Below, piece by piece: positions 12,787 to 42,314 of a DNA stretch of 43,514 nucleotides. A program made the translations under genes and the position numbers. The first letter of the stretch is position 1. Each line of letters opens with the position of its first letter. The DNA comes from a virus: IMG/VR virus record IMGVR_UViG_3300008267_000168, positions 1-43,514 of that record. One strand, 5' to 3'. The notes beneath the pieces were generated by a model. That model made no database searches. It was not told the origin of the DNA and saw nothing but the letters and a program-made list of their open reading frames with translations.

Positions 12787-12994
12787 TCGGTGGTTAAACG
12801 CCGACGAATGCGCCGATTATTTTGGCCTAAGGCGGACCAAGAAGGGCGAGCCCAACCGTCGCGGATTTCTTGAGCGCATTTCTTGTCGCCCAGACTTTCC
12901 GAAACCCCTCGTGATCGGCAATGAAAAAGTGTGGAAATTTTCCGAGGTGGAAGAGTGCGCGCTCGAATGGCGCCGTGTCAGCCAAGCCGCTTAG
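12776..12994 (+). CDS. excisionase-like HTH protein
   Basis: The start is the ATG at 12776 (MAGDRWLNADECADYFGLRR), within the end of the previous gene. The 72-residue protein has a MerR/AlpA-type winged HTH: LNADECADYFGL, then KPLVIGNEKVWKFSEVEECA. It is the last gene of the rightward operon and overlaps the convergent integrase by 17 bp. Family type, size and place fit a recombination directionality factor (Xis). A transcription role is also possible. Confidence 0.7.
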   Translation: MAGDRWLNADECADYFGLRRTKKGEPNRRGFLERISCRPDFPKPLVIGNEKVWKFSEVEECALEWRRVSQAA

Positions 12995-13949: not shown

Positions 13950-13961
13950 AGCGGGCATTAT

Positions 13962-18909: not shown

Positions 18910-19068
18910 ATGGGATTTTTGAAAGGTTTAGCGGCCATAATTCTTGGGTGCGTCATCGCCACCCTGTTTGGCATTGCGGCAGGCTTTATCATTGGGGCCG
19001 CTTTAATTCTCGGCCCTATTCTGTGGCTGTTTTATCGTCCACTACGTCACGATTCCAAACCTGATTGA
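18910..19068 (+). CDS. small plus-strand membrane protein inside late operon (52 aa)
   Basis: ATG at 18910, TGA at 19066. The product is nearly all membrane helix (FLKGLAAIILGCVIATLFGI, then AAGFIIGAALILGPILWLF), followed by a short basic and polar tail. It runs against the surrounding late genes and its last 53 bases are antisense to the end of the giant gene. The gap of 188 bases between two minus-strand genes is unusual here, supporting a real gene. No good ribosome site lies next to the ATG (AAGGGGA is about 20 bases upstream). It may be a prophage-expressed exclusion gene. Confidence 0.45.
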   Translation: MGFLKGLAAIILGCVIATLFGIAAGFIIGAALILGPILWLFYRPLRHDSKPD

Positions 19069-22000
19069 ATTTGTACTGAGCGCCCCACGCTTGCACCTCA
19101 AGGCGGCGCAATTCCATATCACGCGCACGGGTCTTCTTGTCTGGGAAGACATCAGCCGGAACCTTTAAGTATTCTGTTTCCACGTTTTCACGAATGCTCG
19201 TCAGCAGCTTTTCCGTGGCCTTGTAGTGGCCATAAGGGGAGTCAATCTTGCCGACTTCCAGCTTATAATTTCCACCTGATAAAATGACACTTCCGGCAGG
19301 TTCGCCGCTCTTGCCTTTGTTCTTGCGAGTATCAAAGCGAGCGCCTTCCAGTTCTGGGGTTGCTTCCAGATACTTTTGAGCCGCCTCCAGTCCTTCGCTG
19401 TCGAAAACTTTCCGTAATCGCTTAGTGGCCTTGTCAATCGTGGCGCGGCGTTCGTAATACATGGAACGCTGAGCGGCTTGTTCGTCCACCTTAGTCACGT
19501 ATCGCTTAATGATCGGCACATTGTCCGGTCCAATTTGCACGTCTGGGTCAGCAAGGTTTCCACCCAGCGCAGCAGTGTCCATAGCGAACTTACCAAGCCC
19601 GCCAGTCAGTGCTCTTGAGACATACTCCAAATCTTCCGGCGCAAGGTCTAAGGCTGAAATAGCTGGCACGGTTTCATCATCACCGCCGCCTAAACGATTT
19701 AGCCCTTTGGAAGTAATCTTGAATATTTCCAGCGTGTCAGGCTTGCCCATAGATGACCGTGGCAAATCGCTTTTTGCATACGGGTCTTCTTGGCGAATCG
19801 GTCTGCCAAAGTCATCGCGGTTTGTCTGCACGTTCGCCGCAATGGTCAGCGGATACGGCAACATGCCGACCGGACCTTTGGCCACGGGAATAGGAAAGAA
19901 TGATTCCACCAATGCACTGACAGAGTTAGCCGCCAACATCGCAGCGGTTTCGGCCGGCTTGTCTTCCTTGTTCATCATGGCAGAGGTCATCTTGCCGGAA
20001 ATGTACGGCAATACATTGAAGCCGTAAGGTAGCGGAATCGTGACAAGCGTATGTTCGCCCTGTTCGCCTGGAACAATGAACCAGAGATTGCGGCGTTTTA
20101 CATGGTCTGGAATCTTGTTCGCTAGTGGCTCGTCATCGTCATCAGCCAAGCCCATCGCGAACATAGTAGCCGCGACTTGAGCAGCAGCCAGTGTGCCAAG
20201 ATAACCCCACGTCTTAGGCTTGCGCATAACCTTGCTGGAACGCACCGCGCCCTGTAAGGCAGCGTTATAGAACAGGAACCAGCTATTGAGCTTGGAGCCA
20301 TTAAAGCCCTTGCGATTAAAGTTCACCGTCAGGTTCTTGGCGTACTCAGCAGCGGCTTCTGGTGTGTCGCCATTTTTACGAAGCGTCACGTAAGCAGAAA
20401 GGCGCAAGGCATTTTCCACTGCGGTATTCATAACACCTACCAGATCAGCAATGACGCGGCCCACCTTGGCAATACCTGTTGGACTATAACCGCCAAGCTT
20501 TCCGGAGCCGAATGCAGTGGATATATCTTCGGCAGATGGCATATTGACGTAGCCAGTTTGGCCGCCTGCTTTGGCAAACTCATTGGCCCATGTATCCCAT
20601 TCGCTTGTGCCGCGTTTCCCGTAGGCATAACGAAGACTTGCAGTTATAGCTTGCGGATAACGCAGGGCCGATTTAAGCGCAGCAGCTTCACCCTTCTCAG
20701 CAGCCAGTGCCGTCAGGCCAAAGATAGCATCACGGGTTGCATTCACCGGAATGAAGGCGGGATTGTATTGCGTCAGCACGGCAGAGAAATAACGGTTCAT
20801 CTTGCCAGCCAAGCGCGTCAAGCTGCCCATGCGCTCTATGCCAACATGGTTTAATGCCTTGGCTAATTGCTCGTCTGCAATACTGACTTTGTAGAGTTTC
20901 CCTTTATGGCGAACCGCAATGATTCGCGGGTCTGACATATCGTTAATGATGGCTTCGTAAACCTCGCCATTCGCGTCCAGCTTGCGCTCAGTTTGTACCG
21001 GCTCTAGCTCCCATAGCGAAGGGTTTGGATTCGCCAAAACAGTGCGCATGACAGCACGACCCACTCTTGCCTTTTCAGACAGGATGACCGAACGCTGAGC
21101 ATCGCCAATAATTTCCGCCAGAATATTCTCGGCAAGGTTTCCTTCACCGCGCCCCATGGCTTGCTTCAATACTGAGCCGCGAGTATCTACACCACCACCG
21201 CCCACACCTTTTCGCATGTCTGCGTCAAAGTCATTGGCAGCCGTGCGCTTGCCACGTAACGGCACGTAGAATTGATACGCCGCTTTCATGGAGTCAAATT
21301 GTTCTTGAGTAATCAGCCCGTTGTCGAGTAGGCGCTTGCGTGTCTTGTTGGTAATCACATCGACCATGCGCGCCAGTGCTTTCATTTTCGGGTCAGCAGC
21401 GGCCAGAATCTTTTCAGCTTGTGCTGTCGTCATACCGGAGCCAGCATCAGGCATCTTCGGGTTAATTTCAGCTATGCGTTCGTTGCGTTCTTGAGCATGG
21501 CGAGCGTAGAGATATTCCTCCAATTGTTCAGGCTTCACCTTGGCCTGGCGCATGGCTTCGATTAGCGGCAGAATTTGCTCACGCTCTATGTCCGTCATCT
21601 GATCAGCTACGCGACCGTGCATCAGGGTTTCAAGGCGGTACACATTCTCAGCATCAGGGATGACTTTGTTCAAGTCCTCCTGCAAGTAGCGCCAGCTAAT
21701 CATCTTGTCCTGTAAGTCAGCCCGTGCCGCACGCAGCGCGCCCACACGGCCATCCCAGCGATTAGCCTTGTAGTTCCAGCCAGCGGTTCCACGGTCAGCA
21801 GGAAGCGATTCAGCGGCTTCATTGCGTTTGGATTCTGCGGCATTATAAGCAGGCGAATCCTCTTTAACGACTCTTGCTTTATCTCCTTTTTTGCCCCTTT
21901 CAAGAAATCGCGTGACATTGTTGCCGTTGACGACTTTCATGTTCGCCAACGACACAACCGTGCCGTCTGGGTTCACCATGAAAATATCAATTAGCATCCC

Positions 22001-25000
22001 GTGCAATGCCATCTTCTTTAGCGCTGGGCCGTGTGATTTGTAGATAGCCGGAGTCACTACCATTGCGTTCATTGCTGCGCCATTGCGCTTGGTCAGCATG
22101 GACATGGCTGCGGCAAAGCGATCAGTGGAAACAACGCTACGTGGGAACGTCATCGCGGCACGCACAGATGAATCAGCACCGACAGCAAAAACGGCAACCG
22201 AGTTTTCTGGCGTATTCGAGAATAGAGTTTTTGCTAATTGAGCCGCCGAATCTGGGCTTACGATTTTCGCATCAAGTGTCATACCTCTTACGGAAACCAA
22301 AGGGTCAGATTCCCCCTTGTTTGGAATGTTGAAGATATTCTTTCCAGCGTACAGCGTCCCGTTTGGCTTCAGGTATCCGTATGTCTTGTGGTTTAGTACA
22401 ACGTGGCCCATTAGCTGGATGCCTCTGATGCCTCTTTGAATGGCGGCAGTGGCCCTCATGTCAGCACTTGATGGCGTAGGGTTTCCGCTTGGATGGTTGT
22501 GCATCATCCAGAAGCCAGTAGCACCAAAAGTCTTGGCTTGTTCTTCGATCCACGCAGCGCCGTCCTCAATCTCTGTCGGGAAAATACTAGAGGAAGTTGG
22601 AAGACGTGCAGAAACGGCGGTTTCGCCAAGTACTTCGCCAGTATCTTTATTGATGAAGATATAGCGCAGTGTTTCAAATATTGGATTGCGATAAACGTCT
22701 GCAATTACCGCAAGGTCTGCTGCGCTCTCTACTTTCTGCCCAATTAAGAGCGAAGTTTCCGTTTCGCGGAAGTCTCTTGCGATGGTGTCAGCAAGTACGG
22801 AGCCGCCAAACCGCCGCACAAGCGATTCAATCGCGTATTTTCCGCGTCTAATGAGGTTTGGTGAAGCGTCAACTCTTGGTTGAACGCTTTCTGTGTCCAG
22901 CCTTTTGGTGCTTTGAGTTTTAGGATTGGCGTTTTCATTCTGTGCCTCACGGTCTCCACGTGTTGTCACGAACATATCACGGGTAGATTCTACCTTGCCA
23001 TCAAAACTGCCCTGCTCAGGAGCATTTCCAGCAAATAGTTCGCCATCGCCCGACAGCATATCGGTACGGCCTGAGCCGGTCCGACCATCGCGGTCAGCGT
23101 CACGCTTGCGGCGTTCAGCCTCTACGGTTTCTTGGGTGCTTGCTTGGGCAAAGAGTCCTTGCGCGGGAACGGGTTCTTCCCTGATTTGAGGTCTTTCAGG
23201 ACGGCCATCGCCATCCTCTTGCGTTGATTGGGTGTCATTGCCACGGCTGGCCTCCAGTGATTTAGCTAGGTCAATAAGCTGTCTTGCTTGAACAGACTCA
23301 GGCCCGTTAAAGGTAATGTCAAGTATCTGCTCAGGCTGCGCGCCAGCTTCATAAGCACGCTGGATCAAACCGCCAAGCGTCAATGCTTCTTGATAGTCAG
23401 ACTCGTTTAGCTCGTCAATGACTTTCATCGTGGCAGAATTCATGTCTGCCAAGCGGCTTACTTCTGCGTTTGCTTCGTTTTCAAAACGCGCCTCATTGGA
23501 ATACTCGGAAGCGGTGCGAATAGCGTAGTCAATAAACTCTTGCTCACGCGGACCTAGCTTTTGACCAGCCTTATATTTGCTGATGGCCGCACGGGCTTGC
23601 GCTTCATTGAGTGAAGCATTGGGACGGTTACGCCAAAAGCCTGACTCAGTACCATCAGCAGCCGGTTTTGCAATCCATTTGCTGCGGCCAATAACATCGC
23701 CGCCAACCGCATTGCCCATATCAGGCGAACGCTGAATTCGTCCACCAATTTCTGACCAGCCAATTTCTTGGTCGAGTGAATTAAAAAATGAATCTACTGA
23801 GTACGGGTCATTGGTGGGAGCGTTACGCTTACCTTGACCTTCTTGCGGTCGTCCGGCGACAGGTGCTTGGTCTGGTCGAGAATCCAATCCGCTGCGGTCT
23901 GCTCTGCGTTCGGTGCGGAGTCCTGCTGCGGCTCGGTTTTCTTTGTCAGTTCGTTGGGCATTTTCGGCCTCCGTAATGTCTTTTCCGCTGCCGTAAGAGA
24001 ACCCTATTCCGGTGCGTTCGATCACAGTACCATCAGGCAAGGTCACTTGCAATTTAGCCTTGGCGAGCCTGTCACGGGCGCGTGTCATCGCCGCATCAAT
24101 CACGGCAGGGTCATCGCCCTGAACAATGAACTCATCGCCGGACCGGTGGAATACGTTGCCTTCGCCAAGTTCATCGAACAACGCCTGCCCAATCTGAGCG
24201 ATAGCCTCATCGCCAGCGTCATGGTTCAGTTCATCATTAATGCGCTTAAAGTTGTCGGCATCCAGAAACGTCTGAACAGGTTTAAGCTGTCCGGCGTCTT
24301 TCGCTTGCGTGTAGGCCGTACTGTTCTTGATTCCAGGCATCACGCGACCGCCGACTTTACCGGCAGTCCTATCAGCCTTGAGCAGCTTTGCATATTCCAC
24401 AGACTCATCAGGGCTTAAATCCTGCGTGTCTGATTTGGCTTCCAGTTCAGCCAAACGATTTACGGGGTTGGGCCGCTGCCCGGGTTCCGTGATGGCTTCT
24501 GGATTGGCTGGCGTGGAATATTCGGCAATCGTACTTGCGGCTTCTGGATTGGTTGGCGCGGGATTCCCGGCATCCGCACTTTCGGTTGTGTTAAGTCGCC
24601 CAGTTTCATTTTCTTTTTCCTTTTGTAATGCTGTTAATGCAGCGTCAAGATCGTCAGTCGGCTCCACCTGTGAGAGAGCCGTTGCTTTTGAAACAGAAGT
24701 TTCTGCGGTTGCTTCCGTCACAGGTGGAGAGGTTGCCTTTTCAGGCGTGAATAATGGTTTTAGTTTTTCAACAAGATCGCCAAGCCTATCCGGCTTTGTG
24801 TCTGGGACTGCTTGCTTGCCAGCGGCAAGGTCAACAGCAAGGCCAGCGCCAGCCATCGGGCCAGACATGCCAGCACCGGCAGCGAGTGAGTCCACCAGTG
24901 TGTTTTGTAATTCGGTGGTATCAATGCCTTCGCCGCGTATCGCTTGGCCTGCAACGTACTGACTCGGGCCGGTCAAGCCTTCGGATAGTGTTTCGGTTCC

Positions 25001-26038
25001 GGCTACGCGCAAAGCTTTTGCAGCGGGATTTGTCGATGGCTTGAAAATAGCATCGAGTGGCAATTTTTCTGCAAGCGTTTCGATTATTGCTTGAACACCG
25101 GCATCTTGCAAAGACGTGCCAACATCCATGCCTTCCAATCTATCTTGTCCGTATGTTTCGATGCCGGTCGCACCACCGGCAACACCAGCAGCAGAAGCGG
25201 GATTGCCGGTCAGCATTCCGAGCATTGCAGGCAATGACCGCACGACTTGCGGACCGTACTGGCGGGCCACGCTTTCAGGATCGTTAATAACTTGATCAGT
25301 CATATCGCCCAGGCTTCCACGCAATGGCGTACTGCCTGCGGTTACGTCCTGCATACGTTGGTTTGCCGAAGTCAACAAAACATCAGCGCCTTCATTCAGC
25401 GGATCACCAAAATTCATTGGCGCAAGCTGTTCAATCAACTTGTTGTAAACAGGAAGTGAAGATTCTGGGTATCCTTCTTTTAACTGCCTGTAATTCGGGT
25501 CTGTCAACGCTGAACGCATTTCATCGCCTGCATTCAGAAAATCACCGCCCAGTCTTGCTGAGCCACCAAGCAGGGATTCAAGGCCAGATTGGAATGGTTC
25601 GGTAAACATTTCACCCAGAGAAGCCTTGCGCTCAATAATCTTGCCGTCAGGCGTTCTGAATACCGCCCCGTTAGGGGCAGCGTCATAAACGTCATCGAAG
25701 TTAAACGCGCTGCTAACAATAAACGGATCACCGGCTGAACCTGTGCCGCTTGAAATTCGGGTTTCGCGGGTCTTGCCAGTTCCCGGGTCTTTCAGGAAGT
25801 CACGAATAGGCTGCATCTTGTCATCAAGTGGCGCTGCATCTGGAAGCGCACTGGCGTTGACGAACTCAGACGGGGCAATAATGCCTTCTGGAATGTAGCC
25901 GCCATCAACTACCGACGGCTTTCGTGAAAGGTAGTTTGGCAAAGCCGATGACTTTGCTTTTTTCGCAGGCAGAAATTCAGCAAAAGGATTTTCTTGCTCT
26001 TTATCCAGAAACTCAGCAAACGGATTTTCTTCTGTCAT
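19016..26038 (-). CDS. giant polyvalent virion protein with GGDEF-like and RadC/JAB-like domains
   Basis: The protein has 2340 residues. The N-terminus repeats NPFAEFL at 5-11 and 17-23. Residues about 250-420 are Ala/Gly-rich helices. A GGDEF-like domain spans about 560-690: FLDADNFKRINDELNHDAGD, then RSGDEF at 632-637, SGDEF in place of GGDEF. A RadC/JAB domain has HNHPSG at 1180-1185 and Asp 1193, with a following RGIRGIQLMGHVVL. Long helical regions follow, then a large C-terminal domain (about 1740-2070) with YFSAVLTQYNPAFIPVNA, resembling LPD38 of polyvalent phage proteins. It is probably packaged and ejected with DNA, like T7 gp16 or DarB-type proteins, to act in the host early. Domain activities are inference. 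Confidence 0.85.
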   Translation of the reverse strand: MTEENPFAEFLDKEQENPFAEFLPAKKAKSSALPNYLSRKPSVVDGGYIPEGIIAPSEFVNASALPDAAPLDDKMQPIRDFLKDPGTGKTRETRISSGTGSAGDPFIVSSAFNFDDVYDAAPNGAVFRTPDGKIIERKASLGEMFTEPFQSGLESLLGGSARLGGDFLNAGDEMRSALTDPNYRQLKEGYPESSLPVYNKLIEQLAPMNFGDPLNEGADVLLTSANQRMQDVTAGSTPLRGSLGDMTDQVINDPESVARQYGPQVVRSLPAMLGMLTGNPASAAGVAGGATGIETYGQDRLEGMDVGTSLQDAGVQAIIETLAEKLPLDAIFKPSTNPAAKALRVAGTETLSEGLTGPSQYVAGQAIRGEGIDTTELQNTLVDSLAAGAGMSGPMAGAGLAVDLAAGKQAVPDTKPDRLGDLVEKLKPLFTPEKATSPPVTEATAETSVSKATALSQVEPTDDLDAALTALQKEKENETGRLNTTESADAGNPAPTNPEAASTIAEYSTPANPEAITEPGQRPNPVNRLAELEAKSDTQDLSPDESVEYAKLLKADRTAGKVGGRVMPGIKNSTAYTQAKDAGQLKPVQTFLDADNFKRINDELNHDAGDEAIAQIGQALFDELGEGNVFHRSGDEFIVQGDDPAVIDAAMTRARDRLAKAKLQVTLPDGTVIERTGIGFSYGSGKDITEAENAQRTDKENRAAAGLRTERRADRSGLDSRPDQAPVAGRPQEGQGKRNAPTNDPYSVDSFFNSLDQEIGWSEIGGRIQRSPDMGNAVGGDVIGRSKWIAKPAADGTESGFWRNRPNASLNEAQARAAISKYKAGQKLGPREQEFIDYAIRTASEYSNEARFENEANAEVSRLADMNSATMKVIDELNESDYQEALTLGGLIQRAYEAGAQPEQILDITFNGPESVQARQLIDLAKSLEASRGNDTQSTQEDGDGRPERPQIREEPVPAQGLFAQASTQETVEAERRKRDADRDGRTGSGRTDMLSGDGELFAGNAPEQGSFDGKVESTRDMFVTTRGDREAQNENANPKTQSTKRLDTESVQPRVDASPNLIRRGKYAIESLVRRFGGSVLADTIARDFRETETSLLIGQKVESAADLAVIADVYRNPIFETLRYIFINKDTGEVLGETAVSARLPTSSSIFPTEIEDGAAWIEEQAKTFGATGFWMMHNHPSGNPTPSSADMRATAAIQRGIRGIQLMGHVVLNHKTYGYLKPNGTLYAGKNIFNIPNKGESDPLVSVRGMTLDAKIVSPDSAAQLAKTLFSNTPENSVAVFAVGADSSVRAAMTFPRSVVSTDRFAAAMSMLTKRNGAAMNAMVVTPAIYKSHGPALKKMALHGMLIDIFMVNPDGTVVSLANMKVVNGNNVTRFLERGKKGDKARVVKEDSPAYNAAESKRNEAAESLPADRGTAGWNYKANRWDGRVGALRAARADLQDKMISWRYLQEDLNKVIPDAENVYRLETLMHGRVADQMTDIEREQILPLIEAMRQAKVKPEQLEEYLYARHAQERNERIAEINPKMPDAGSGMTTAQAEKILAAADPKMKALARMVDVITNKTRKRLLDNGLITQEQFDSMKAAYQFYVPLRGKRTAANDFDADMRKGVGGGGVDTRGSVLKQAMGRGEGNLAENILAEIIGDAQRSVILSEKARVGRAVMRTVLANPNPSLWELEPVQTERKLDANGEVYEAIINDMSDPRIIAVRHKGKLYKVSIADEQLAKALNHVGIERMGSLTRLAGKMNRYFSAVLTQYNPAFIPVNATRDAIFGLTALAAEKGEAAALKSALRYPQAITASLRYAYGKRGTSEWDTWANEFAKAGGQTGYVNMPSAEDISTAFGSGKLGGYSPTGIAKVGRVIADLVGVMNTAVENALRLSAYVTLRKNGDTPEAAAEYAKNLTVNFNRKGFNGSKLNSWFLFYNAALQGAVRSSKVMRKPKTWGYLGTLAAAQVAATMFAMGLADDDDEPLANKIPDHVKRRNLWFIVPGEQGEHTLVTIPLPYGFNVLPYISGKMTSAMMNKEDKPAETAAMLAANSVSALVESFFPIPVAKGPVGMLPYPLTIAANVQTNRDDFGRPIRQEDPYAKSDLPRSSMGKPDTLEIFKITSKGLNRLGGGDDETVPAISALDLAPEDLEYVSRALTGGLGKFAMDTAALGGNLADPDVQIGPDNVPIIKRYVTKVDEQAAQRSMYYERRATIDKATKRLRKVFDSEGLEAAQKYLEATPELEGARFDTRKNKGKSGEPAGSVILSGGNYKLEVGKIDSPYGHYKATEKLLTSIRENVETEYLKVPADVFPDKKTRARDMELRRLEVQAWGAQYKFNQVWNRDVVDDKTATE

Positions 26039-26943
26039 TTCAATTTTCTGCGAATAATTTCAGCTTTCAGTTTGGCAATGATTTTTGCTTTGGCGGCAGG
26101 GTTTGCCTCAATGGCTTGAGTCGCTTGTGCCTTGAGCTTGTCCATTTCACTACCGCTCCCGTCGAGTCTCGGCGTTTTGGTATTGGCGTCAGCAGAAGTC
26201 GGTCGATTGCCAAGCTCAGCAGGCTTGTCGGCATAACTAAACTCGCCCGTTTCAAGGAACTGATCCATCAGGTCAACGCGGTCAGCCACTGAAATGGGCT
26301 TGCCAGTAACGGTTTCAATTTCTTTTATCTTATTGTTTATCTCAGACAGGCGGCTCTTGCGGTCTGCGCGTGCAATACCGGCTTCAGTGGCGCGCTGGCG
26401 AGCTTGTCCAGTCTTCACTTGCTGTTCTTTCACTTCGAGCGTGGCATCGCCAAGCGGCGTTGTCGTGGTCTTGAGGGAGACGGGATCGAAGATTTCACCG
26501 CCCCTGCTTTGCGGCAATACCTTGTCTGTTTTTACTGCCGACAAAATACGGGCGCGTTTTAAGTCGCCTTTTTCCAAAGCCTCACGGATTTGCATATCCA
26601 TCGTAGCGTCGGCCACTTTTTCAGTTCCGCCCATATGGGTATTAAAGCTGGGCGTCGAATCAGACAGCGCAAATGCACCAGCAACACCAGCATCTTCGCT
26701 CAACATTCCATGCGCCTTGTACTGGGCATTAATCCTGTCCTGCAATGTACTGCGTGCATCGACCTGGCCCTGTGCAATCATCGCCTGCGCACGCTCTTTA
26801 CGCGCCTGCTCAAGGTTTCCGTAAGCAGTGTAATTTCGATTTAGCTGATCCACGTAAGCCTTTTCCTGCCCGGCTTTGTCACCGCCAGCAAGCATCGTGC
26901 CTAATTGGCCCCAGCCTTCATATCCGCTTGGCATATCAGCCAC
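26035..26943 (-). CDS. internal virion protein (302 aa), helical
   Basis: A 302-residue, mostly helical protein (QLNRNYTAYGNLEQARKERA, then TEAGIARADRKSRLSEINNK) without signal or membrane segments. It precedes and is coupled by ATGA to the giant gene. In T7-like phages the equivalent slot holds an ejected internal core protein. This assignment rests on position and composition. Confidence 0.6.
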   Translation of the reverse strand: MADMPSGYEGWGQLGTMLAGGDKAGQEKAYVDQLNRNYTAYGNLEQARKERAQAMIAQGQVDARSTLQDRINAQYKAHGMLSEDAGVAGAFALSDSTPSFNTHMGGTEKVADATMDMQIREALEKGDLKRARILSAVKTDKVLPQSRGGEIFDPVSLKTTTTPLGDATLEVKEQQVKTGQARQRATEAGIARADRKSRLSEINNKIKEIETVTGKPISVADRVDLMDQFLETGEFSYADKPAELGNRPTSADANTKTPRLDGSGSEMDKLKAQATQAIEANPAAKAKIIAKLKAEIIRRKLK

Positions 26944-27577
26944 CGATCCCGGCAGTTGCGCTGCCTATGCCGCCACCGATACTGCTACCTGTCGCGCTTG
27001 TCGGCGCGCCGCTAAAGTTGCCGCCATACGATGACATCGTTGCAGCAGCAGCATCCAGCCACGGATTGCGTTGAATCGAACGCAAACGCAGTTCATCAAG
27101 GAACGCTTGTCCGCGTGCTTCGCGTGCAATCATGTTGTTATCCGTAGCAAGACGACCGTAACCGAACGCTTCGCCACGTCGCTGCATACTCGGAGCGTCT
27201 ATGCGACTCATCAGGCCAGCAATGTTGCCAGCGTAATCAAGTGTTCCTTGTGCGCCTTTCGCTGCGTCCGCTTTGAAAGCATCCGATCCAATGCCCGGCG
27301 TGAGTCCTGCGGTAATATCTCCCGAACCCTTGCGAACTGTGTCGGTATAATTTGCCAGAGATTCAGCACGTTCATCTGCGGAATTGCTTTGCGAAAGCTC
27401 CTGCACTTCTTTGTTGATTCGAGCATCAATTTCTTGCTGCTTCTTGTCCTGGTTTCGGATCGAACCCGCTAAGGCTCGGTCTTGCTTCTTGGCAGTCTGA
27501 TTGGTGTTGTACGCACTCGTTCCTGCGGCAGCGGCAGCAGCGGCAAGTGCAACGATTGTTGAGGTAGCGAGCGCCAT
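26936..27577 (-). CDS. internal virion protein, gp14-like (213 aa)
   Basis: The start is the ATG at 27575-27577 (MALATSTIVALAAAAAAAG). The N-terminal hydrophobic Ala-rich segment (about 4-20) is followed by a charged helical part (QDKKQQEIDARINKEVQEL) and a Gly/Ser-rich C-terminus (about 180-213). This resembles gp14-type ejection proteins, which embed in the host outer membrane. It overlaps the next gene by 8 bp. Confidence 0.6.
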   Translation of the reverse strand: MALATSTIVALAAAAAAAGTSAYNTNQTAKKQDRALAGSIRNQDKKQQEIDARINKEVQELSQSNSADERAESLANYTDTVRKGSGDITAGLTPGIGSDAFKADAAKGAQGTLDYAGNIAGLMSRIDAPSMQRRGEAFGYGRLATDNNMIAREARGQAFLDELRLRSIQRNPWLDAAAATMSSYGGNFSGAPTSATGSSIGGGIGSATAGIGG

Positions 27578-27578
27578 A

Positions 27579-28031
27579 TCAGTGAACTCCGAAATGCTTG
27601 GTGTAATAGGTTTCTGTTTTCGCGTACCCCAAACGCGAATAAACACTGGATACTTGTTCTGGGCTGTTGGTTAAATGCGCCATTTGAGCGCCAACACAAT
27701 CGGATTCTTTTGCGCGTTTATCAGCAGCACGGATCAAGGCCAGTGCAGCAAAGCCGCCACGGGTTTCCGGACTCACCCAGAAAACAACCTCATGCGCCTT
27801 ACGTGCGGGATTGCAAAGTCCAGCGCCATAAACCATAGCCACCATGCCGACAATCTTTTCTTGTTGCTCAGCAACCAGAAGGAATCCGGAATGACGAATG
27901 CCGCCGATGTTTATCATCGTGTGAGCTTCATCAAAAGGCCCGTCTTTGTCATAACCGGACGCAGAATAAAAGTCTCGCGCCATTTTCAGCACTGATGGCA
28001 TATCGCTATCAGTAGCATCACGAACAATCAT
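27579..28031 (-). CDS. GNAT-family N-acetyltransferase
   Basis: The protein has 150 residues. The GNAT fold is visible: MIVRDATDSDMPSVLKMARD, GFLLVAEQQEKIVGMVAMV, then the acetyl-CoA loop VVFWVSPETRGGFAALALIR and the terminal VYSRLGYAKTETYY. The canonical Q/R-x-x-G-x-G/A loop is partly altered (RGGFAA). Within the internal virion gene cluster it could be a structural protein with an old enzyme fold or an ejected modifying enzyme. Confidence 0.8.
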   Translation of the reverse strand: MIVRDATDSDMPSVLKMARDFYSASGYDKDGPFDEAHTMINIGGIRHSGFLLVAEQQEKIVGMVAMVYGAGLCNPARKAHEVVFWVSPETRGGFAALALIRAADKRAKESDCVGAQMAHLTNSPEQVSSVYSRLGYAKTETYYTKHFGVH

Positions 28032-28657
28032 CCTCCAGGCCCCTTTCCGTAGTAGTAGCCAGTTGAAGGCGACGGCACGTAGTAATTGTTATAGGCGTTT
28101 TTGTCTGCGTCTCTGCGCACTTTGGACTCTTGCGATTTTTGATAGAAGTCTTTGAAGCCGCCAAACATGTCGCCTAGTCCCTGAACCATCGACGTGGATT
28201 TTCCAGCCTGTAAAGAAGTGCGCATGGCAGCAGAGGCTTGCTGCGCTGCCGTTGTCGCATCCAGTCCGGTTGTGGCAAGGGATATCAGGTTAGCCCGGGC
28301 ATCTTGGTCAGCCGCTTCCATTTCAGCGCCAGCGCCCTGTGCGCGGCGTTCTACGTCAAGCAAGCCTTTTGAATATTCCTCGCCAAAGCGCGTTTGCTGG
28401 TCCACTTGCGTACTGCTTCCAATCTGGCCATTGCGAGCAAGCGCAAACTTTAATTGCTGGTCGTTCGTCTTTTTCTGGCGCGTCAGGTCTTCGCCGTAAT
28501 ATTGGCGCATGGCCCCAACGTAATCAGCAATATCTGCTGCACGTTGCGGACTATCAAAGGCTGCGTTTACGGCACCTTGTGTTTGGCGAATAGCATCCTG
28601 ACGACGCTGCTCGGTTGCCGCCGCTTCGCGTGACGCGTTGTCGCTGCCGCCGCTCAT
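28028..28657 (-). CDS. internal virion / ejection protein (209 aa)
   Basis: A 209-residue, Gln/Ala-rich helical protein (AATEQRRQDAIRQTQGAVNA, then GAEMEAADQDARANLISLA) with a Tyr/Gly-rich end. No hydrophobic segment long enough for a membrane. Its position between two GNAT-like genes suggests a member of the ejected internal complex. Not recognised by family. Confidence 0.55.
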   Translation of the reverse strand: MSGGSDNASREAAATEQRRQDAIRQTQGAVNAAFDSPQRAADIADYVGAMRQYYGEDLTRQKKTNDQQLKFALARNGQIGSSTQVDQQTRFGEEYSKGLLDVERRAQGAGAEMEAADQDARANLISLATTGLDATTAAQQASAAMRTSLQAGKSTSMVQGLGDMFGGFKDFYQKSQESKVRRDADKNAYNNYYVPSPSTGYYYGKGPGG

Positions 28658-29163
28658 GTCGCTTTCCTTATGATAGCAAACATCACCGCGTCTTCCCCAT
28701 TGGCGCAGTAAGCTTTTTGAACCCCTTCGTTTTTCATGCCGAGCCGTTCATACCAGTGATGGCTTAAAAGGCGAGACGGCAATGCTGCGGTTTGAATGCG
28801 GTGCGCATCGCCATCAAGCATTTGTGCTATCAGGCGCTTTGAAATCTTAGTGAATGCTCGCCAGTATTTGTCCCACGCCTTATCAGTACCCATCAGCCAT
28901 GCCTCATAAACACCTTTACGAATAGGCTCAAAGCCACCGATCAGCACCGGATACCCAGCCCTATCGACATAGACATAGCTCGGGCCATGAATAGAAGCAG
29001 CAACACGAGCGCAAATATCGGACGTGTAATAAGGCAAGTCTGTCTTGGCTAAGAACTGGGCAATCTCGTCCGTTCGCATGTTCTTGGCGATGTGCGCAAA
29101 ATCCTCCAGAATTGGCGCACCAAGACGCAGCTCGGGAACGATATTGATAGACCCGTCAGCCAT
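28654..29163 (-). CDS. second GNAT-like virion-cluster protein (gp13/DUF2833-like)
   Basis: The protein has 169 residues. It shows YPVLIGGFEPIRKGVYEAWL, ISKRLIAQMLDGDAHRIQTA and the terminal HHWYERLGMKNEG, the layout of phage acetyltransferase-like proteins related to T7 gp13 (DUF2833). The first strand carries a short acid patch rather than a clear acetyl-CoA loop, so it may be structural. It is coupled to genes on both sides. Confidence 0.65.
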   Translation of the reverse strand: MADGSINIVPELRLGAPILEDFAHIAKNMRTDEIAQFLAKTDLPYYTSDICARVAASIHGPSYVYVDRAGYPVLIGGFEPIRKGVYEAWLMGTDKAWDKYWRAFTKISKRLIAQMLDGDAHRIQTAALPSRLLSHHWYERLGMKNEGVQKAYCANGEDAVMFAIIRKAT

Positions 29164-29654
29164 CAGGAGCCTGCCCGGTTATCGTGGACATACATGCTCA
29201 GCGCATACATGGTCATATTGCCGCTCGCCCAAGTGATCTTTGGAGCAATTGAAGGCGCAGATAGCGGCATAGGTATCATTGTTCCGGTCAAGCTATCGGC
29301 AGGAATTTCATAAGGGTCCGAAAATGTAGCGGGCGCAAGCTGGTCGTAACCAAAGCTAATCATTGGTAGCTGGTCAGAAGTCGCCACTATGTCAAAAGAT
29401 TCCAACATTTTCGTCACTCCCGGCAAACTCATATCCAGCCACGGCCACTGAATTTCGCCATCCACAAGCAATTCTGCTGCTTCAATAAAATCGCTTGTAT
29501 AGGTGGAATCCACGATGCTGACGTAATCGCCATGCCTCAGATACAGAGTGTCGCCAAGCAGAGAGAACGCTTCAATGTCAAAATCAAAAACATATTTAGA
29601 CCACGCGCCACGACCTGCTTGCAGCATTGAATACACCCAAACGTCAGTAGCCAT
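29163..29654 (-). CDS. C-terminal part of tail hub/stabilisation protein (split gene)
   Basis: The start is the ATG at 29652-29654 (MATDVWVYSMLQAGRGAWS), overlapping the previous stop as TAATG. WVYSMLQAGRGAWSKYVF, then LYLRHGDYVSIVD, WPWLDMSLPGVTKML and IPMPLSAPSIAPKITW match what is usually the last third of a single P22 gp10-like stabilisation protein in related phages. Here it is a separate 163-residue gene. The upstream gene ends with an Ig-like domain before this point. Split rather than truncated, since both parts remain open and coupled. Confidence 0.65.
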   Translation of the reverse strand: MATDVWVYSMLQAGRGAWSKYVFDFDIEAFSLLGDTLYLRHGDYVSIVDSTYTSDFIEAAELLVDGEIQWPWLDMSLPGVTKMLESFDIVATSDQLPMISFGYDQLAPATFSDPYEIPADSLTGTMIPMPLSAPSIAPKITWASGNMTMYALSMYVHDNRAGS

Positions 29655-31276
29655 TATGAGCCGTCCTGGAATCGAATATTGACGCGCTTGGTCCGGCCTG
29701 CTGCGTCTGTGATGGTGATGACAGAATTTACTGTGGCCAAGGAACCCGGGGTTCCTGTTATGTCTCCCGTGTCTGGGTCGATGGACGCCCAAGAAGGTAA
29801 TAGCCCAGTTGTGCCGGATGGCGACCAGACACCCTCGGAATAGGTATATGGACGAATGCCACGCGCCCCACGGAGTTCTTTTCTAATGGACGTTGCAGCA
29901 AAAACATCAATAACAAAACGAACTTCATCATACAAAACGTCATCAAGAAAGGCAGTCAGAAGTTTGTTTGTAAACATCATCCATAGCTGGCCCAACGCAG
30001 GAACATAAAGCCCTTCTGGCGTCTGCCCGGCAGTCAAGTGCGCTTGAATCAGGGAATCGACAGGCTTGCCAATATCGCCTGTCTGTAAATTATCCGAAGC
30101 TGCGGAAATTCCAACGCTTCGCACCCCTTGCGCGGCCATAAAAAATTGTTCTTCGCCAACGGGCTGAGCCGCAAGCGGATAAGTTGAGCCGATTCCCTCC
30201 ATCTGGTCGAGCAGTGCCATATTGGCGGGATCTGGGTCTATCTGCCACATTTGAAAAGTTGACGAAGACCAAACGCAGAGATTGCCGCGGTACACTCCTA
30301 AAACCAGCGCATCGTTATTGCCGTACTGGTGCAGGCCGGTCGGGAGATACCCAGCATCACCGGCGCTCGTCCAATCCAGCGCGTCAACAGTTGAGCAATA
30401 ACGCACCACATCACCGGCGACAGCAAATATTTTACTTGCCCCAACCGCAATAACTTTCGTTCTCGGACAGTTCGGGTCTTTGACTTCTTGCGTTACGCAC
30501 TCCCATTGAGTTGTGTTGTCAGCAACTAAAGCGCCTGGAATAGTTGGCCAAGTCGGTTCTGACGCACCTGAGCGCAGCAATGATACCGCCGTCCACACCA
30601 CGCGATTAGACTGAACCGCCGTCCATACAAGTGTTGACCCATCTGCCACCGTAGCGGCCACCGTAGTGGGCCACACAGGTTCCACGGCTGAGCTTGTGCC
30701 AGCGGTCGTGCATTGATAAAGAAGTCCGCCTATCGGCCCTGAATATGTTTGATCCCATGCAAGCGAATCAAAATGAATTTCAACGGTTGCCGTCGCATCG
30801 ACCTTGAGAATCGGGCGCGCAAAGGCAGCGGTTGCTGGTGCGGTAGCCACAACCAGAATCTGCTGCCATGCGTCCAAAGGGGAGCTTAATGCTTTGTCGC
30901 CGTAATCAGTTTTGATAAACACTGAGCCGGACGTGTACCACGAAATGCCAACAAACACTTGGGGCTGGGTGATAAAAGACCCAGCATCAAGACGCGTCCT
31001 TGCCTTTAGCGTAATTACTTGCCCCGGCAGAACGTCCGCCAAAACAGTGCTGGTGACAGTGCCTGTGCCAGAACCATTAAATCTAAGACTCTGAGCGCCC
31101 TCAAAAACGGGGGACGTATCAATCGACCATGAGCCTGCGATACCCGTCCAGCTTGCCGTACCTGTTTCAAAGCCAGCATTTGGGATTGCTGTTTGCACGG
31201 GCGCAGGCGTTGTACGTGGCTGGATAATCTCACCTAGCGCATACGGTTCACCGGGGGACCATATTTGAGCTGGCAT
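29654..31276 (-). CDS. middle part of tail hub/stabilisation protein with added CBM- and Ig-like domains
   Basis: The protein has 540 residues. Residues about 25-180 resemble a carbohydrate-binding module (IPNAGFETGTASWTGIAG, then SIDTSPVFEGAQSLRFNG). The region about 250-440 is the conserved body of the gp10-like hub: ADNTTQWECVTQEVKDPNCP, VRYCSTVDALDWTSAGDAGY and FQMWQIDPDPANMALLDQME. The C-terminal LPSWASIDPDTGDITGTPG and VITITDAAGRTKRVNI is an Ig-like domain of the He_PIG type (about 490-538). In related phages the N-terminal and C-terminal parts belong to the same protein. It probably forms part of the tail tube/hub and displays carbohydrate-binding domains. Confidence 0.65.
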   Translation of the reverse strand: MPAQIWSPGEPYALGEIIQPRTTPAPVQTAIPNAGFETGTASWTGIAGSWSIDTSPVFEGAQSLRFNGSGTGTVTSTVLADVLPGQVITLKARTRLDAGSFITQPQVFVGISWYTSGSVFIKTDYGDKALSSPLDAWQQILVVATAPATAAFARPILKVDATATVEIHFDSLAWDQTYSGPIGGLLYQCTTAGTSSAVEPVWPTTVAATVADGSTLVWTAVQSNRVVWTAVSLLRSGASEPTWPTIPGALVADNTTQWECVTQEVKDPNCPRTKVIAVGASKIFAVAGDVVRYCSTVDALDWTSAGDAGYLPTGLHQYGNNDALVLGVYRGNLCVWSSSTFQMWQIDPDPANMALLDQMEGIGSTYPLAAQPVGEEQFFMAAQGVRSVGISAASDNLQTGDIGKPVDSLIQAHLTAGQTPEGLYVPALGQLWMMFTNKLLTAFLDDVLYDEVRFVIDVFAATSIRKELRGARGIRPYTYSEGVWSPSGTTGLLPSWASIDPDTGDITGTPGSLATVNSVITITDAAGRTKRVNIRFQDGS

Positions 31277-36089: not shown

Positions 36090-37142
36090 TTATGCCACGC
36101 TCAAAACGGCGTTGCTGTTGCGCTTGTTGGTCGTCATGCCGTATTTGCTGGTCATGCCCCAGTAGTGGAAATAACGGTCAGGCAAACGCTCGGGCTTGCG
36201 GTTGACCATCCATGCGCCGGTCATTGGGCGTAACTTCACGCTGCGGCTGTTCAAGAAATAGCAGCGTTTTGTCCATGGATAGGTGATGGCACCCAACAGT
36301 GCATCGAGGGTTTCAAAGGATGGGTCCCAAACGATTGGAACGCCTTTGAAGTACAGGCCAGAAACCGCACCGTCAACACCAATTCCGCCCTTTTCAGGCA
36401 CAACGATTTGACGCTGAATAACGCCAGTGGTCAGGCCGACGCAGGCTGCGCGGTATGCGTCAATGAACGCGGCACCGGCTGCGATGTAGTCCGGCATTTG
36501 ACCGCCGTACAGGATGCAAGCGCGCCATGATTCTTCCATTTCATCCAGAAGATTTGCAGTAGCGATTGCCAAGTTAGCGTTGTTCTGCCAGTAGCTGTTC
36601 GAGGCAAGAATATTGCCCACGGTGCCGGTGGATGGCGTGGTGGATACTAAATGGTCAATACCCTTGGCGGTCTTGGTGCTGGAGCTACCGTCTTGCAACA
36701 GTTCCAGATTCAAGCCTTCTTGGGTCGATTCTTTGAGCGCGTAGTACGAGCTTTTCAGCAGGTTGTTGATTTGAATCTTTTCAGCGCCGGAAGCCACGGC
36801 CTCTTTGTCGTCAGTGACAATAATGCCGTTTGCAGCCAATTGGTCTTCATCGAAGCCGAAGCCATCATGGAAGTTCGCATAAGAAAACTTGGCCAAGCGG
36901 TTAGGATCGCGGTCGTTGTAGGTAACGGCATCGGCACCAAAGTAGTTCTGATAGTTCGAGCCATTGGAAATATGGACCGATTCATTGTGATAGCCATTGC
37001 CGAACAATGAGCTTTCTTTGTTTTTCATCAGCCATTCAAGCGTTGGCCGGTTCTTGTTGATTAAGTCGATTGGATCTTTTTTCGAGTAGGCTTCCAACGA
37101 ATAGTTGGTGCCTGCTGCGATTTGAATAGTGGTAAACGGCAT
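36090..37142 (-). CDS. major capsid protein
   Basis: A 350-residue protein placed right after the scaffold gene. The sequence MPFTTIQIAAGTNYSLEAYS, then DRDPNRLAKFSYANFHDGFG and VNRKPERLPDRYFHYWGMTS fits capsid proteins of short-tailed phages with an HK97-type fold. It is in the expected order (terminase, portal, scaffold, capsid). There is no protease gene in the cluster and no obvious cleavage site, so maturation is probably non-proteolytic, as in P22 or T7. The fold is inference from place and pattern. Confidence 0.85.
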   Translation of the reverse strand: MPFTTIQIAAGTNYSLEAYSKKDPIDLINKNRPTLEWLMKNKESSLFGNGYHNESVHISNGSNYQNYFGADAVTYNDRDPNRLAKFSYANFHDGFGFDEDQLAANGIIVTDDKEAVASGAEKIQINNLLKSSYYALKESTQEGLNLELLQDGSSSTKTAKGIDHLVSTTPSTGTVGNILASNSYWQNNANLAIATANLLDEMEESWRACILYGGQMPDYIAAGAAFIDAYRAACVGLTTGVIQRQIVVPEKGGIGVDGAVSGLYFKGVPIVWDPSFETLDALLGAITYPWTKRCYFLNSRSVKLRPMTGAWMVNRKPERLPDRYFHYWGMTSKYGMTTNKRNSNAVLSVA

Positions 37143-37309
37143 CGTCGTGTCCTCAGAATAGAAAGTGGGTTGTCCACGTTCGAGGGCGCGACACTCTGCG
37201 TTCTGCGCTACCGGTTAGCGACTCCGGCAATTACAGCTATGGCGTGGTGCGTTTGTCAGACGCACACGCACAATCACATATTCATAAATAGCTTCAAGGG
37301 GAATTTCCC
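37143..37309 (-). promoter_or_regulatory. 167-base leader before the capsid gene, with hairpins
   Basis: The longest gene-free stretch in the late operon. It contains CGCTACCGGTTAGCG (stem CGCTA/TAGCG), GTGCGT-7-ACGCAC, and near the scaffold end AAGGG-6-CCCTT. No long T-run follows any stem, so these are not clear terminators. They may be an mRNA-processing or stability region that raises capsid expression over scaffold. No sure promoter was seen. Confidence 0.45.
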
Positions 37310-38344
37310 TTACATGACAGATAGCAGACCCAAGTCGAACGCCTCAATAGGATCATCGAGAACAGGAGTTAACCCGGGTGCCAATCCAGCCGGGCGAATA
37401 GGCGCAGGTGTTGGTGCTGGCCTTGCTGCCGCTACTGGATCAGGGATTTGCAGATAAGCATCACGCGAACGCTTGGCCCACTCGCTTGGATGGCAGGTTT
37501 CGCGAATGGTTTTCACGATAGGCAGGAAGTATTGAAGCTTTGCATCATAGTGCGGATCAGCCTTGGTCAGCACATCACCCAGTTCATTCAATGAGCGCGT
37601 ACCGGAATCGAACTGTGTCTGACTTTCCTGCACGTTGCGGGTTTGCTCGTCGCGCTGATTAGCCATATTTCCGACAGTTCGGGATGCTGCAATCTGCAAG
37701 GCGTATTGGCGGCTAATTTCGCCATTATCCAGTGCTTCTTTCAGGTCTGCGTGGCCCTCAATCGGATCGACAACGCCAGACACTTCCTTGCCCAGCATCT
37801 TGGCCCATGTCTGCATTTCCTCGGTCATGTAGGCGTAGCATTTTTCTGCTGCCTTCAAGTCGCCGGACAATGCCTGATTGGCAAAGCGCAGATAATCGAA
37901 CGCCATGCCGACTTGCTCAGGTGTCGAATTGGTGCTAACTACTGCGTCCTCCCATTCGTCGGCTACCTTTGCACGCTCCAGCATGCGCGGCAGTTCCGCA
38001 ATGTCAGTGACTCCAGCTTTTTCAAGTGCTTCTTTGATGGGCGCATACGTCTTAATTTCACTGGCCATATGCTGGAAACGCTCAGCACTGCGGCCTTTTA
38101 AACCCAGCGTGGCAATCTCTTTGTCAGCCTCAGTAGGCTCCACTTTCGCAGGCTCGACGGCTTCGGCTTTGACGGGTTCCGTTGGTTCCGTAACTGCTGC
38201 CGGTTCCTCGGCTGCAATTACCGGCTCGTCTGCAACAACAGCATCAGGATTTGACGGGTATTCTTCAATGGCCTTGTCGAAAGCGGCACTGACTTCTTGC
38301 TCAATATCAACAGGTTCGTTTTTTTCTTCTGGTTCGATAATCAT
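37310..38344 (-). CDS. scaffolding protein
   Basis: A 344-residue protein between portal and capsid. It starts with a strongly acidic and Ala/Pro/Val-rich segment (about 1-75, EPEEKNEPVDIEQEVSAAFD), then becomes helical (KGRSAERFQHMASEIKTYAP) and ends in a Pro-rich tail (AAARPAPTPAPIRPAG). Composition and place match phage head scaffolds. AGGGGA ribosome site upstream. Confidence 0.85.
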   Translation of the reverse strand: MIIEPEEKNEPVDIEQEVSAAFDKAIEEYPSNPDAVVADEPVIAAEEPAAVTEPTEPVKAEAVEPAKVEPTEADKEIATLGLKGRSAERFQHMASEIKTYAPIKEALEKAGVTDIAELPRMLERAKVADEWEDAVVSTNSTPEQVGMAFDYLRFANQALSGDLKAAEKCYAYMTEEMQTWAKMLGKEVSGVVDPIEGHADLKEALDNGEISRQYALQIAASRTVGNMANQRDEQTRNVQESQTQFDSGTRSLNELGDVLTKADPHYDAKLQYFLPIVKTIRETCHPSEWAKRSRDAYLQIPDPVAAARPAPTPAPIRPAGLAPGLTPVLDDPIEAFDLGLLSVM

Positions 38345-38353
38345 AAAATCCCC

Positions 38354-40513
38354 TTACATTGGTTGTGGTATTTCGGGTGCAACAGGTGGTGCGCCAGCAG
38401 GCGCAGGAGGTTGTCCAGGCATCGGAGCGCCGGGCATTGCCGTGGGCATTGCTTGGCCATTGGCGCGTGGAATGAGTTGATCGAGGTTGATGTAATCGCC
38501 TGAACGCTCCACCGTGATCCGCATGAGTTCTTCCAGAGAATCAGCGATAACGTCAGGTGTGGCACCGCGTAGTTGTGCAATCTGCTGCACGCCAGTGGTG
38601 AGCTGCGGCAACAACACAGACCACGCTTGACGCTCGGCAGTGGTGTTGGGTTTGCCAGAGCTGCCAGCACGAATATCCACTTCCACCAGTGAGCGTAGTT
38701 CTTCCGGGCTTGTGATTTGCTGCCACATAGCATCAGGGCCAACTAGCTTGCGCACGTCATCGCCGGTCATGTTGGTTAGCGCCACTTCTGCCGTGTACAT
38801 GGCTAGATCGGTCAATGCTTCTTCCATCCAGTCACGCTCTGAACCGGTACGCGCTTGAAAACCTGTTTGCTGAATCTGTGCCTCAGTCGCAGTCTTGCCC
38901 GTGCTGACTTGGCTCAATGCTTCTTGAATGCCCCAGATACGCTCCAGTTCGCCAATGATTCGGGAACGGTCATATAGCGCAGGGTCAAGGCCAGCATAGA
39001 CAACAGGTTTAAACATTGTGCCAACATCAGTACCGGGCCGGATAGGTTCGACACCCACCATTTCCTGCTCGGTGCCATTAGCAATAGCACTAACATCAGT
39101 GGGCGAAAGGCCGGTCCTGTCGAACACAGTCTTGGGGACGATTCGCGAACGATGGCGTTTTTCAGCCGTGCCTATACGGTTGTACTCATCGACCAGCTTT
39201 GCACTGCGTGAAACCTTGCTTTGCGGGTGTCTCTGGCCGTCAATAGCGCCAGAGGCAAACAAGAAGAACGGATAAAACCGGCTTGTCGGCTTAGGCGAAT
39301 ACTCAGGACGCGCCCAGCAATCCAAGCCCTGTAAAGCTGTCATCACGCAGTTAGCGTTGCGGTTCCAAATCTCCACGCACATCACAAAATCGCCCGCCGT
39401 TTCGCCGTTCATCTTGTCGGTGTTCGACACGTATTCGTCAGCGTCCTTGGCATCCAACGACTCAATGCCAACAAGGTTCATCGACTCGGCCTTAGTCATT
39501 TCAGGCTTGCGTTGCTGATAGCACTTAAGCTTCCTGGCCTGCTCTTGCGATAGCTTGAAGTCAGCAACAGCGTCCTGTTTTGCCATCGGTATGTAGTGGG
39601 CAATCCAGTCAGCGTCCAGATAGTTCTCAATCGTCACGCCGGGTGCGACTTGAATGTACTCGGCCTGTCCGTTATCAATCACAAATCCCTTGGCAACGAT
39701 TCGCTCTACCTTGCTTTCCAGTGCCTTGAGTTGACGGCGATATTCAGCGAGCAATGCGTCTTGCTGAGCGCCTGCGGCTTCATCCATTTCCGCACGCAAG
39801 GCTGCGGCCTTGTTGATGTTGTCTTGCAAATCGTTGATCTTCTGACGCGTCACAGGGTCTTCACCCATGCGTTCCTGCCAGCTCGCCTTTAACCAGCCGA
39901 CAGAGACGGTCAGGTTTGAACGCACCCATGGACGCGCACGCATCTTGAGTTTCGCGTCTTTCCACAAGCGTTCAATGACCAGCTCAAGGGTTTCCGCAAA
40001 GGCTTTGGCTTCACGTTGCTTGCGATTGAACGCATCTTTCATCGCCTGGTATTGTTTCTGCACAGCAACATCGACAGCGGCGTTCTTTGCCAGTGTCAGC
40101 ATTTCCATATCGCCGGGGAATTGTGCAGCGGCCAATGCAACAGCCTGCTCAACCTCTGGCGACTTCTGAGCTTCTTCCTCTGCGATTTCCTTAATCAGCT
40201 CAATGTCAGGCACTTCGGCACACTTAGCCGGTGACACATCGCAGGCAGGGTCTTGCGCGTATAGAAACGACACCAGAATGTCGATGAATGTCCCGATGAT
40301 ATTGGCGTCAACGTCAAACGATGAGTCGCCACGGGCATATCGGCGGTCATAGGCGTACTGCCTGCGTGCATCTTCGTCAAACTTGCGAGCCTTCTTGATG
40401 CGCTCAAGCCATGAGTGAACGTCTGCACGCTCCTTGGCCTTGGCCGGCACCTTCATAGGATCGTCAGCCGCATCCATGCCAGCCTCGAAAGCCGTGTTGA
40501 TATCATCGCTCAC
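38354..40513 (-). CDS. portal protein
   Basis: A 719-residue protein, the usual size for short-tailed phages (P22 gp1, T7 gp8-like). N-terminal VHSWLERIKKARKFDEDARR and YARGDSSFDVDANIIGTFID lead into the wing and stem domains. The long helix about 170-270 (FNRKQREAKAFAETLELVIE, then KLKMRARPWVRSNLTVSVGW) is characteristic. The C-terminus is Pro/Met/Ala-rich (PTAMPGAPMPGQPPAP), probably disordered. It forms the dodecameric DNA channel at one capsid vertex. Confidence 0.9.
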   Translation of the reverse strand: MSDDINTAFEAGMDAADDPMKVPAKAKERADVHSWLERIKKARKFDEDARRQYAYDRRYARGDSSFDVDANIIGTFIDILVSFLYAQDPACDVSPAKCAEVPDIELIKEIAEEEAQKSPEVEQAVALAAAQFPGDMEMLTLAKNAAVDVAVQKQYQAMKDAFNRKQREAKAFAETLELVIERLWKDAKLKMRARPWVRSNLTVSVGWLKASWQERMGEDPVTRQKINDLQDNINKAAALRAEMDEAAGAQQDALLAEYRRQLKALESKVERIVAKGFVIDNGQAEYIQVAPGVTIENYLDADWIAHYIPMAKQDAVADFKLSQEQARKLKCYQQRKPEMTKAESMNLVGIESLDAKDADEYVSNTDKMNGETAGDFVMCVEIWNRNANCVMTALQGLDCWARPEYSPKPTSRFYPFFLFASGAIDGQRHPQSKVSRSAKLVDEYNRIGTAEKRHRSRIVPKTVFDRTGLSPTDVSAIANGTEQEMVGVEPIRPGTDVGTMFKPVVYAGLDPALYDRSRIIGELERIWGIQEALSQVSTGKTATEAQIQQTGFQARTGSERDWMEEALTDLAMYTAEVALTNMTGDDVRKLVGPDAMWQQITSPEELRSLVEVDIRAGSSGKPNTTAERQAWSVLLPQLTTGVQQIAQLRGATPDVIADSLEELMRITVERSGDYINLDQLIPRANGQAMPTAMPGAPMPGQPPAPAGAPPVAPEIPQPM

Positions 40514-41868: not shown

Positions 41869-42314
41869 TCGGATTTAGCTGCCACGGGCTGGATGATGAA
41901 CTGAGGTGCAGGCAAGTTATTACCGTCTGAATCGGCAAGCATCATCTTGTCGCCGTACTTCTTGGGCTTGAGTTTGGAAGCGACCCATTTACGGGCGTCG
42001 ATCCTTAGTCGATTACGGGCAACGGCTGTTGCATCAAAGGCAACAAGGACTTCTTCACCTTCTTCATTTACCAGTGAGCGAGTGCCAACTTCATCAGCAA
42101 TAGACGTGATTTCATCGGCCAAAGCCTCTGCTTGTTCCTCGCGTGCGCGTGCGTATTGCTCTGAGAATGCTGGAAAGTCGTTAAGCCACTTGAAAACTGT
42201 GGCCATCGAAGGCTGATCTTCATCCTTACAAATAGACCGTAGAGATTCGCCTTCTGCCAGTCTGTTACAGATGGCATCGCCAATCTTCTGTGTGTATGTG
42301 CTTACACCAGCCAT
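41865..42314 (-). CDS. terS: terminase small subunit
   Basis: The protein has 149 residues. N-terminal IGDAICNRLAEGESLRSICK and QPSMATVFKWLNDFPAFSEQ make an HTH of the type found in small terminases, followed by a helical oligomerisation part (ARAREEQAEALADEITSI). It recognises the packaging start site. A folded sequence that could be such a site lies upstream (42572-42632). Confidence 0.85.
   Translation of the reverse strand: MAGVSTYTQKIGDAICNRLAEGESLRSICKDEDQPSMATVFKWLNDFPAFSEQYARAREEQAEALADEITSIADEVGTRSLVNEEGEEVLVAFDATAVARNRLRIDARKWVASKLKPKKYGDKMMLADSDGNNLPAPQFIIQPVAAKSE

Follow-up and report, generated by a model that had tools for sequence, protein, structure and literature searches.

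A giant polyvalent phage protein combining GGDEF, RadC-like JAB and LPD38 domains

Can a phage carry a second-messenger synthase in its own virion? The question is raised by one gene in the window, i.e., the whole stretch of DNA analysed here, which is one IMG/VR virus record, 43,514 bases long. The gene, P0001 (19016..26038), starts with ATG and encodes an uninterrupted giant protein of 2340 aa; it lies on the minus strand, as do all other parts of the late operon described below. Phage polyvalent proteins, some of them with a GGDEF domain (e.g., a protein of an Acetonema longum prophage), were described by Iyer et al. (2017; PMC5512222). They are typically encoded close to late genes, and their packaging has been inferred. 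Both the class and the presence of GGDEF domains within it have been known since 2017. Compared with the open-licence PubMed Central literature, the present analysis adds a phage-specific SGDEF clade with a conserved active site, a repeated pairing of GGDEF with RadC, and the occurrence of RadC in phage-type proteins.

Genomic setting and domain organization

The phage of the window is temperate and tailed. It encodes an integrase (12978-13958), RecT, SSB, a terminase, a portal and a major head protein, and its late operon runs on the minus strand. P0001 is located near the end of a conserved run of virion genes. It overlaps the upstream ORF (26035-26943) by 4 nt, which suggests co-translation within the late operon. 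The upstream run of late genes (26035..31276), including a GNAT acetyltransferase (27579-28031) and a tail-fibre-like protein (29654-31276), shows synteny for most of its genes in the nearest relatives (L015-L018). The virion module starts with the head, portal and both terminase subunits, large and small (36090..42314); the major head protein is encoded at 36090-37142 and the portal at 38354-40513. Among 50,697 phage records, the portal has only three weak relatives (in a Microcystis phage, a Rhizobium phage and one unnamed phage), so that the head module of this phage seems itself to be rare. A tRNA-like gene, to which ARAGORN assigned no identity, is found at 9306-9376.

Pfam matches were judged against the curated cut-offs, and three domains exceed them: GGDEF at residues 590-684 (E 1.4e-9, 38.4 bits, cut-off 23.8), RadC/JAB at residues 1167-1220 (E 4.1e-9, 36.9 bits, cut-off 22.1) and LPD38 at residues 1974-2176 (19511..20119; E 2.3e-23, 83.7 bits, cut-off 27). 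The motifs are FLDADNFKRINDELNHDAGD at 591-610, RSGDEF at 632-637 and HNHPSG at 1180-1185 with Asp1193. The sequence-only reading, which had placed the three domains in one late-operon ORF with motifs at these residues and had assigned the protein to the polyvalent class, was therefore accurate. With at least two unrelated effector domains (GGDEF and RadC) and LPD38 in one intact ORF among late virion genes, the P0001 product is a phage polyvalent protein.

Other parts of the protein are less familiar. An unnamed module at residues ~740-1015 (22994..23821; EIGW...FWRNRP...FIDYA) has no Pfam match; it is common to the giant proteins of L016, L017 and L019 and is present with or without GGDEF. 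The conserved C-terminal half (residues 1442-2242; 19313..21715) shares ~30% identity with giant proteins found in named phages and gives long PHROGs matches to giant families, one of them named DarB-like antirestriction. At the other end, residues 4-23 (25970..26029) form a significant self-repeat, the tandem motif EENPFAEFL / QENPFAEFL, and the motif recurs in no other ORF of the window that is at least 80 aa long. The N-termini of giant ORFs often start with a short motif repeated two to four times, e.g., NIFDQFD, GGFFDEF or WWEDPSKY in other phages. These repeats are near-identical within one protein and differ between phages (examples in L162, L054, L231, L232, L118 and L185). By shuffling they are significant in 29 of 101 N-termini and in 2 of 101 internal stretches, and in the 20 phages checked they are essentially limited to the giant ORF. 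The repeats of giant proteins, including the one in P0001, are possibly a tag for docking in the virion or for packaging.

The RadC-like JAB domain covers residues ~1100-1225 (22364..22741). Its JAMM motif, E...HxH-x7-S-x2-D, is intact (E1122, H1180, H1182, S1190 and D1193). In 18 polyvalent RadC sequences both histidines and the aspartate are invariant, and the glutamate nearly so (17-18/18). The glutamate of GETAVS was also considered for the JAMM motif and was ruled out by the alignment in favour of E1122. Among solved structures, RadC 2QLC was the sole sequence-profile match with E < 0.01 (E 4e-20), and the fold of the JAB part (model pLDDT 72) likewise matches it best. The domain is probably followed by a degenerate JAB-like repeat without HxH, at residues ~1262-1370 (21929..22255), as judged from the model and from sequence comparison: in this second region, helices and strands follow one another as in the first JAB, and hhalign aligns the two with P 3e-4 at a probability of just 40%.

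A GGDEF clade of giant phage proteins

The GGDEF domain extends beyond its motif. The AlphaFold model (mean pLDDT 89) shows a complete domain at residues ~553-712 (23903..24382), and every match listed by Foldseek in the PDB is the structure of a GGDEF domain or a diguanylate cyclase, with E down to 1e-8 and modest TM-scores of ~0.5-0.65. Both folds expected from the sequence-only reading were thus recovered, above the Pfam cut-offs as well as in the structural models.

Conservation was assessed in an alignment of 56 sequences from phage contigs (mean column identity 32%), which are ~16-38% identical to the window domain. D593, N601, G634 and E636 are each present in 56/56 sequences, as is an acidic residue (D or E) at 635, and K699 is found in 55/56. 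At position 610, 46 sequences have Asp, nine have Asn and one has Thr. D593, D635, N601, D610 and K699 are the equivalents of PleD D327, E370, N335, D344 and K442; on this numbering, we take D593 and D635 to be the metal acids, D593 being the first metal Asp, and N601 to contact guanine. The RxxD inhibition site (I-site) is missing from the window domain. Catalysis by GGDEF domains requires dimer formation.

The first glycine of the motif is replaced by serine in the window (SGDEF, residues 633-637). Serine is found at this position, S633, in 37/56 sequences. Within the clade, SGDEF is thus the usual form, and its reading as a mark of decay was rejected. Together with the invariant or nearly invariant active-site residues, this makes decay unlikely. 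Studies of other proteins have given both outcomes for this motif: the natural SGDEF enzyme ECA3270 was reported to be active (PMC3974145), and an AGDEF to SGDEF change in VCA0965 abolished activity. A search of the open-licence PubMed Central literature found neither an experiment on the P0001 product nor an activity assay of a member of the GGDEF clade. The proposal that the domain makes cyclic dinucleotides is a plausible prediction, given the residues conserved in the 56 sequences and the precedent of ECA3270. Loss of the metal- or nucleotide-binding residues, which would have spoken against the sequence-only reading, was seen in neither domain.

When viral contigs were scanned with the whole protein, no close relative came up; profile-guided scans recovered ~60 GGDEF loci. 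Most of these have the domain within an ORF of ~800-4,400 aa; the exceptions are stand-alone proteins of the YuA type and a few cellular-like GGDEFs. The phage clade comprises the YuA-type proteins and, in uncultivated phages, ~45 giant ORFs; it is almost wholly contained in giant ORFs. Only one of 369 bacterial genomes, of the class of G067, has a phage-type GGDEF match, in an ORF of 4954 aa. Among the full-length matches in the 50,697 phage records, none was a GGDEF of the P0001 type inside a giant ORF of a named phage, all being YuA-type stand-alone proteins. The tree keeps 7 rows of cellular-like sequences and 8 rows of the YuA type apart from each other and from the main clade of giant proteins. 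The window domain falls in this main clade with support 88/83; its branch is long (1.3) and its exact placement unsure. The tree speaks against a recent capture of a diguanylate cyclase from a host, as the window domain groups with phage sequences and stands apart from the seven cellular-like ones.

A second polyvalent GGDEF lineage of eight sequences (L016, L020 and L231-L236) has DxxNLGGLN instead of DxDxFKxxND. In L016, the nearest relative having a GGDEF (residues 618-796), the equivalent of K332 is lost, as is much of the DxDxFK motif. From these motifs, activity in this lineage is possibly altered or lost, which suggests that the GGDEF slot may not always need catalysis.

At least eight other viral contigs also unite GGDEF and RadC, each above the Pfam cut-off, in a single ORF (L184, L189, L193, L195, L196, L211, L212 and L217). 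In L211 and L217 the order of the two domains is reversed, which makes two or more origins of the pairing probable. LPD38 also exceeds its cut-off in L193 and L211, and about ten further ORFs have a RadC together with an LPD38-type C-terminal half but no GGDEF. In the 2017 survey, RadC was restricted to polyvalent proteins of conjugative elements and LPD38 to those of phages (Iyer et al. 2017, PMC5512222). The presence of RadC in phage polyvalent proteins corrects this stated division of effectors.

An inorganic pyrophosphatase (InPase) domain is another frequent neighbour, often within ~200 residues of the GGDEF when both are present (L178, L175, L179, L196, L183, L180, L220, L195 and L181). 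Pyrophosphate is released by cyclase reactions, so such a pair could be functional. Coupling was not retained as a claim, since 11/53 giant ORFs with GGDEF and 21/145 without it contain the domain, a difference too small to support one.

Delivery, catalysis and alternative roles

The P0001 product is probably packaged in the virion and delivered to the host. For the phage of the window, this part of the sequence-only reading is extrapolated from the late operon, from synteny and from JC1 gp69, a homologue that differs in its N-terminal half and was found with 51 unique peptides in CsCl-purified virions (PMC9144972). The homology with JC1 gp69 covers ~1/3 of the window protein, at the C-terminal end.

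The computed evidence covers the identity and fold of the domains, the conservation of their active sites, their recurrence and the operon position; on this basis we infer a course of infection, from packaging and delivery to catalysis, product and host effect. The polyvalent protein would be packaged in the virion and ejected together with the DNA. In the newly infected cell, the GGDEF domain would then produce a cyclic dinucleotide from GTP, most probably c-di-GMP, free of control by product inhibition as the I-site is missing. The outcome would be an early shift of host signalling, or a supply of cyclic dinucleotide that disturbs nucleotide-based responses. RadC/JAB would act as a separate zinc-hydrolase effector, with a nucleic acid or nucleotide as a likelier substrate than ubiquitin-like proteins. 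For this protein, we regard a virion-delivered, GTP-dependent synthase acting early in infection, with RadC/JAB as second effector, as evenly poised between right and wrong. More tentatively, the clade as a whole may consist of phage-own, catalytically intact SGDEF synthases of cyclic dinucleotides, carried in giant virion proteins and repeatedly joined to RadC/JAB, so that many phages would inject a synthase at the start of infection; docking might involve the fast-changing tandem motifs at the N-terminus.

Several other roles were weighed. The GGDEF domain might be a non-catalytic module that binds nucleotides or c-di-GMP, or a structural spacer, a reading favoured by the departure of SGDEF from the canonical motif and by the altered DxxNLGGLN motif of the second lineage (L016, L020 and others). 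We consider it unlikely, since the metal and phosphate residues are strictly conserved in sequences only ~16-38% identical to the window domain, and the missing I-site speaks against c-di-GMP binding. If the domain is catalytic, its product, or a mimic, could be directed specifically against defence (CBASS, Panoptes or alarmone systems), e.g., by silencing a nucleotide-restrained effector or by diverting GTP. Other phages are known to deplete defence signals, Panoptes punishes such depletion via decoy cyclic nucleotides (PMC12657218), and interference with host nucleotide signalling was already proposed in 2017 for polyvalent GGDEFs (PMC5512222). However, the conserved N601 and D610, as guanine contacts, point to a GTP-derived product, whereas the reported Panoptes signals contain A and have another linkage (PMC12657218). 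Moreover, general annotation of the window brought to light no linked defence gene or sponge. A dedicated counter-defence role is likewise improbable in our judgement.

The domain could also work without being injected, in the cell that produces the phage or in the lysogen, as has been suggested for YuA-type stand-alone proteins (host conversion, biofilm). YuA gp44 carries the annotation putative host conversion, lysogens of Bordetella phage LK3, which carries a GGDEF gene, form more biofilm (a correlation; PMC8471281), and the phage of the window has an integrase. The window GGDEF nonetheless lies inside a protein of the late virion operon, unlike YuA gp44, which is encoded outside the virion genes, and we give this role little credence. 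Least probable of all is that the JAB domain strips ubiquitin-like modifiers used by defence systems, as the sequence-only reading had suggested. The complete JAMM motif and a weak fold similarity to deubiquitinases (E ~1e-3 to 1e-2) agree with it, but every strong match is a RadC, and the RadC clade is reported to be unlikely to hold a groove for the ubiquitin tail (PMC5512222), which makes ubiquitin cleavage the weakest part of that interpretation.

If the preferred reading of an active, virion-delivered GGDEF is right, phages deliver a second-messenger synthase and do not only destroy such messengers. Host motility, biofilm formation or lysogeny could be set, or nucleotide-based immunity disturbed, before any phage gene is expressed. 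With its 156 aa, YuA gp44 offers a compact model of the clade.

Comparison with known systems

Among characterized enzymes, the canonical diguanylate cyclases PleD and DosC share with the window domain the fold, the two metal acids and the equivalents of N335, D344 and K442. They differ in having GGDEF instead of SGDEF, an RxxD I-site, and an N-terminal LTGLxNRR segment in place of which the window has AGKVGGRVMPGIKN. The closest GGDEF of named phages, at ~30-37% identity, is that of YuA, MP1412 and the Vojvodinavirus group. It lies on the same phage side of the tree and has the same tail signature, with SGDEF or AGDEF, but YuA gp44 is a small stand-alone protein. RadC 2QLC of Chlorobium tepidum has the same JAB fold and JAMM motif, whereas the window RadC is embedded in a giant protein and is probably followed by the repeat without HxH.

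At the level of the whole protein, the polyvalent proteins of Iyer et al. (2017) are similar in being giant late proteins with unrelated effectors and an LPD domain in a virion-gene setting; the combination of RadC and LPD38 in one protein departs from the division made in that survey. The DarB-like giant proteins of Lessievirus (BcepIL02 gp70 and JC1 gp69) are homologous to the window protein in the C-terminal half, at ~30% identity, and are encoded at the end of the virion module. In JC1, a GNAT acetyltransferase gene lies upstream in the same run, as in the window. In contrast, the Lessievirus proteins have another N-terminal part and a length of ~4,500-4,700 aa.
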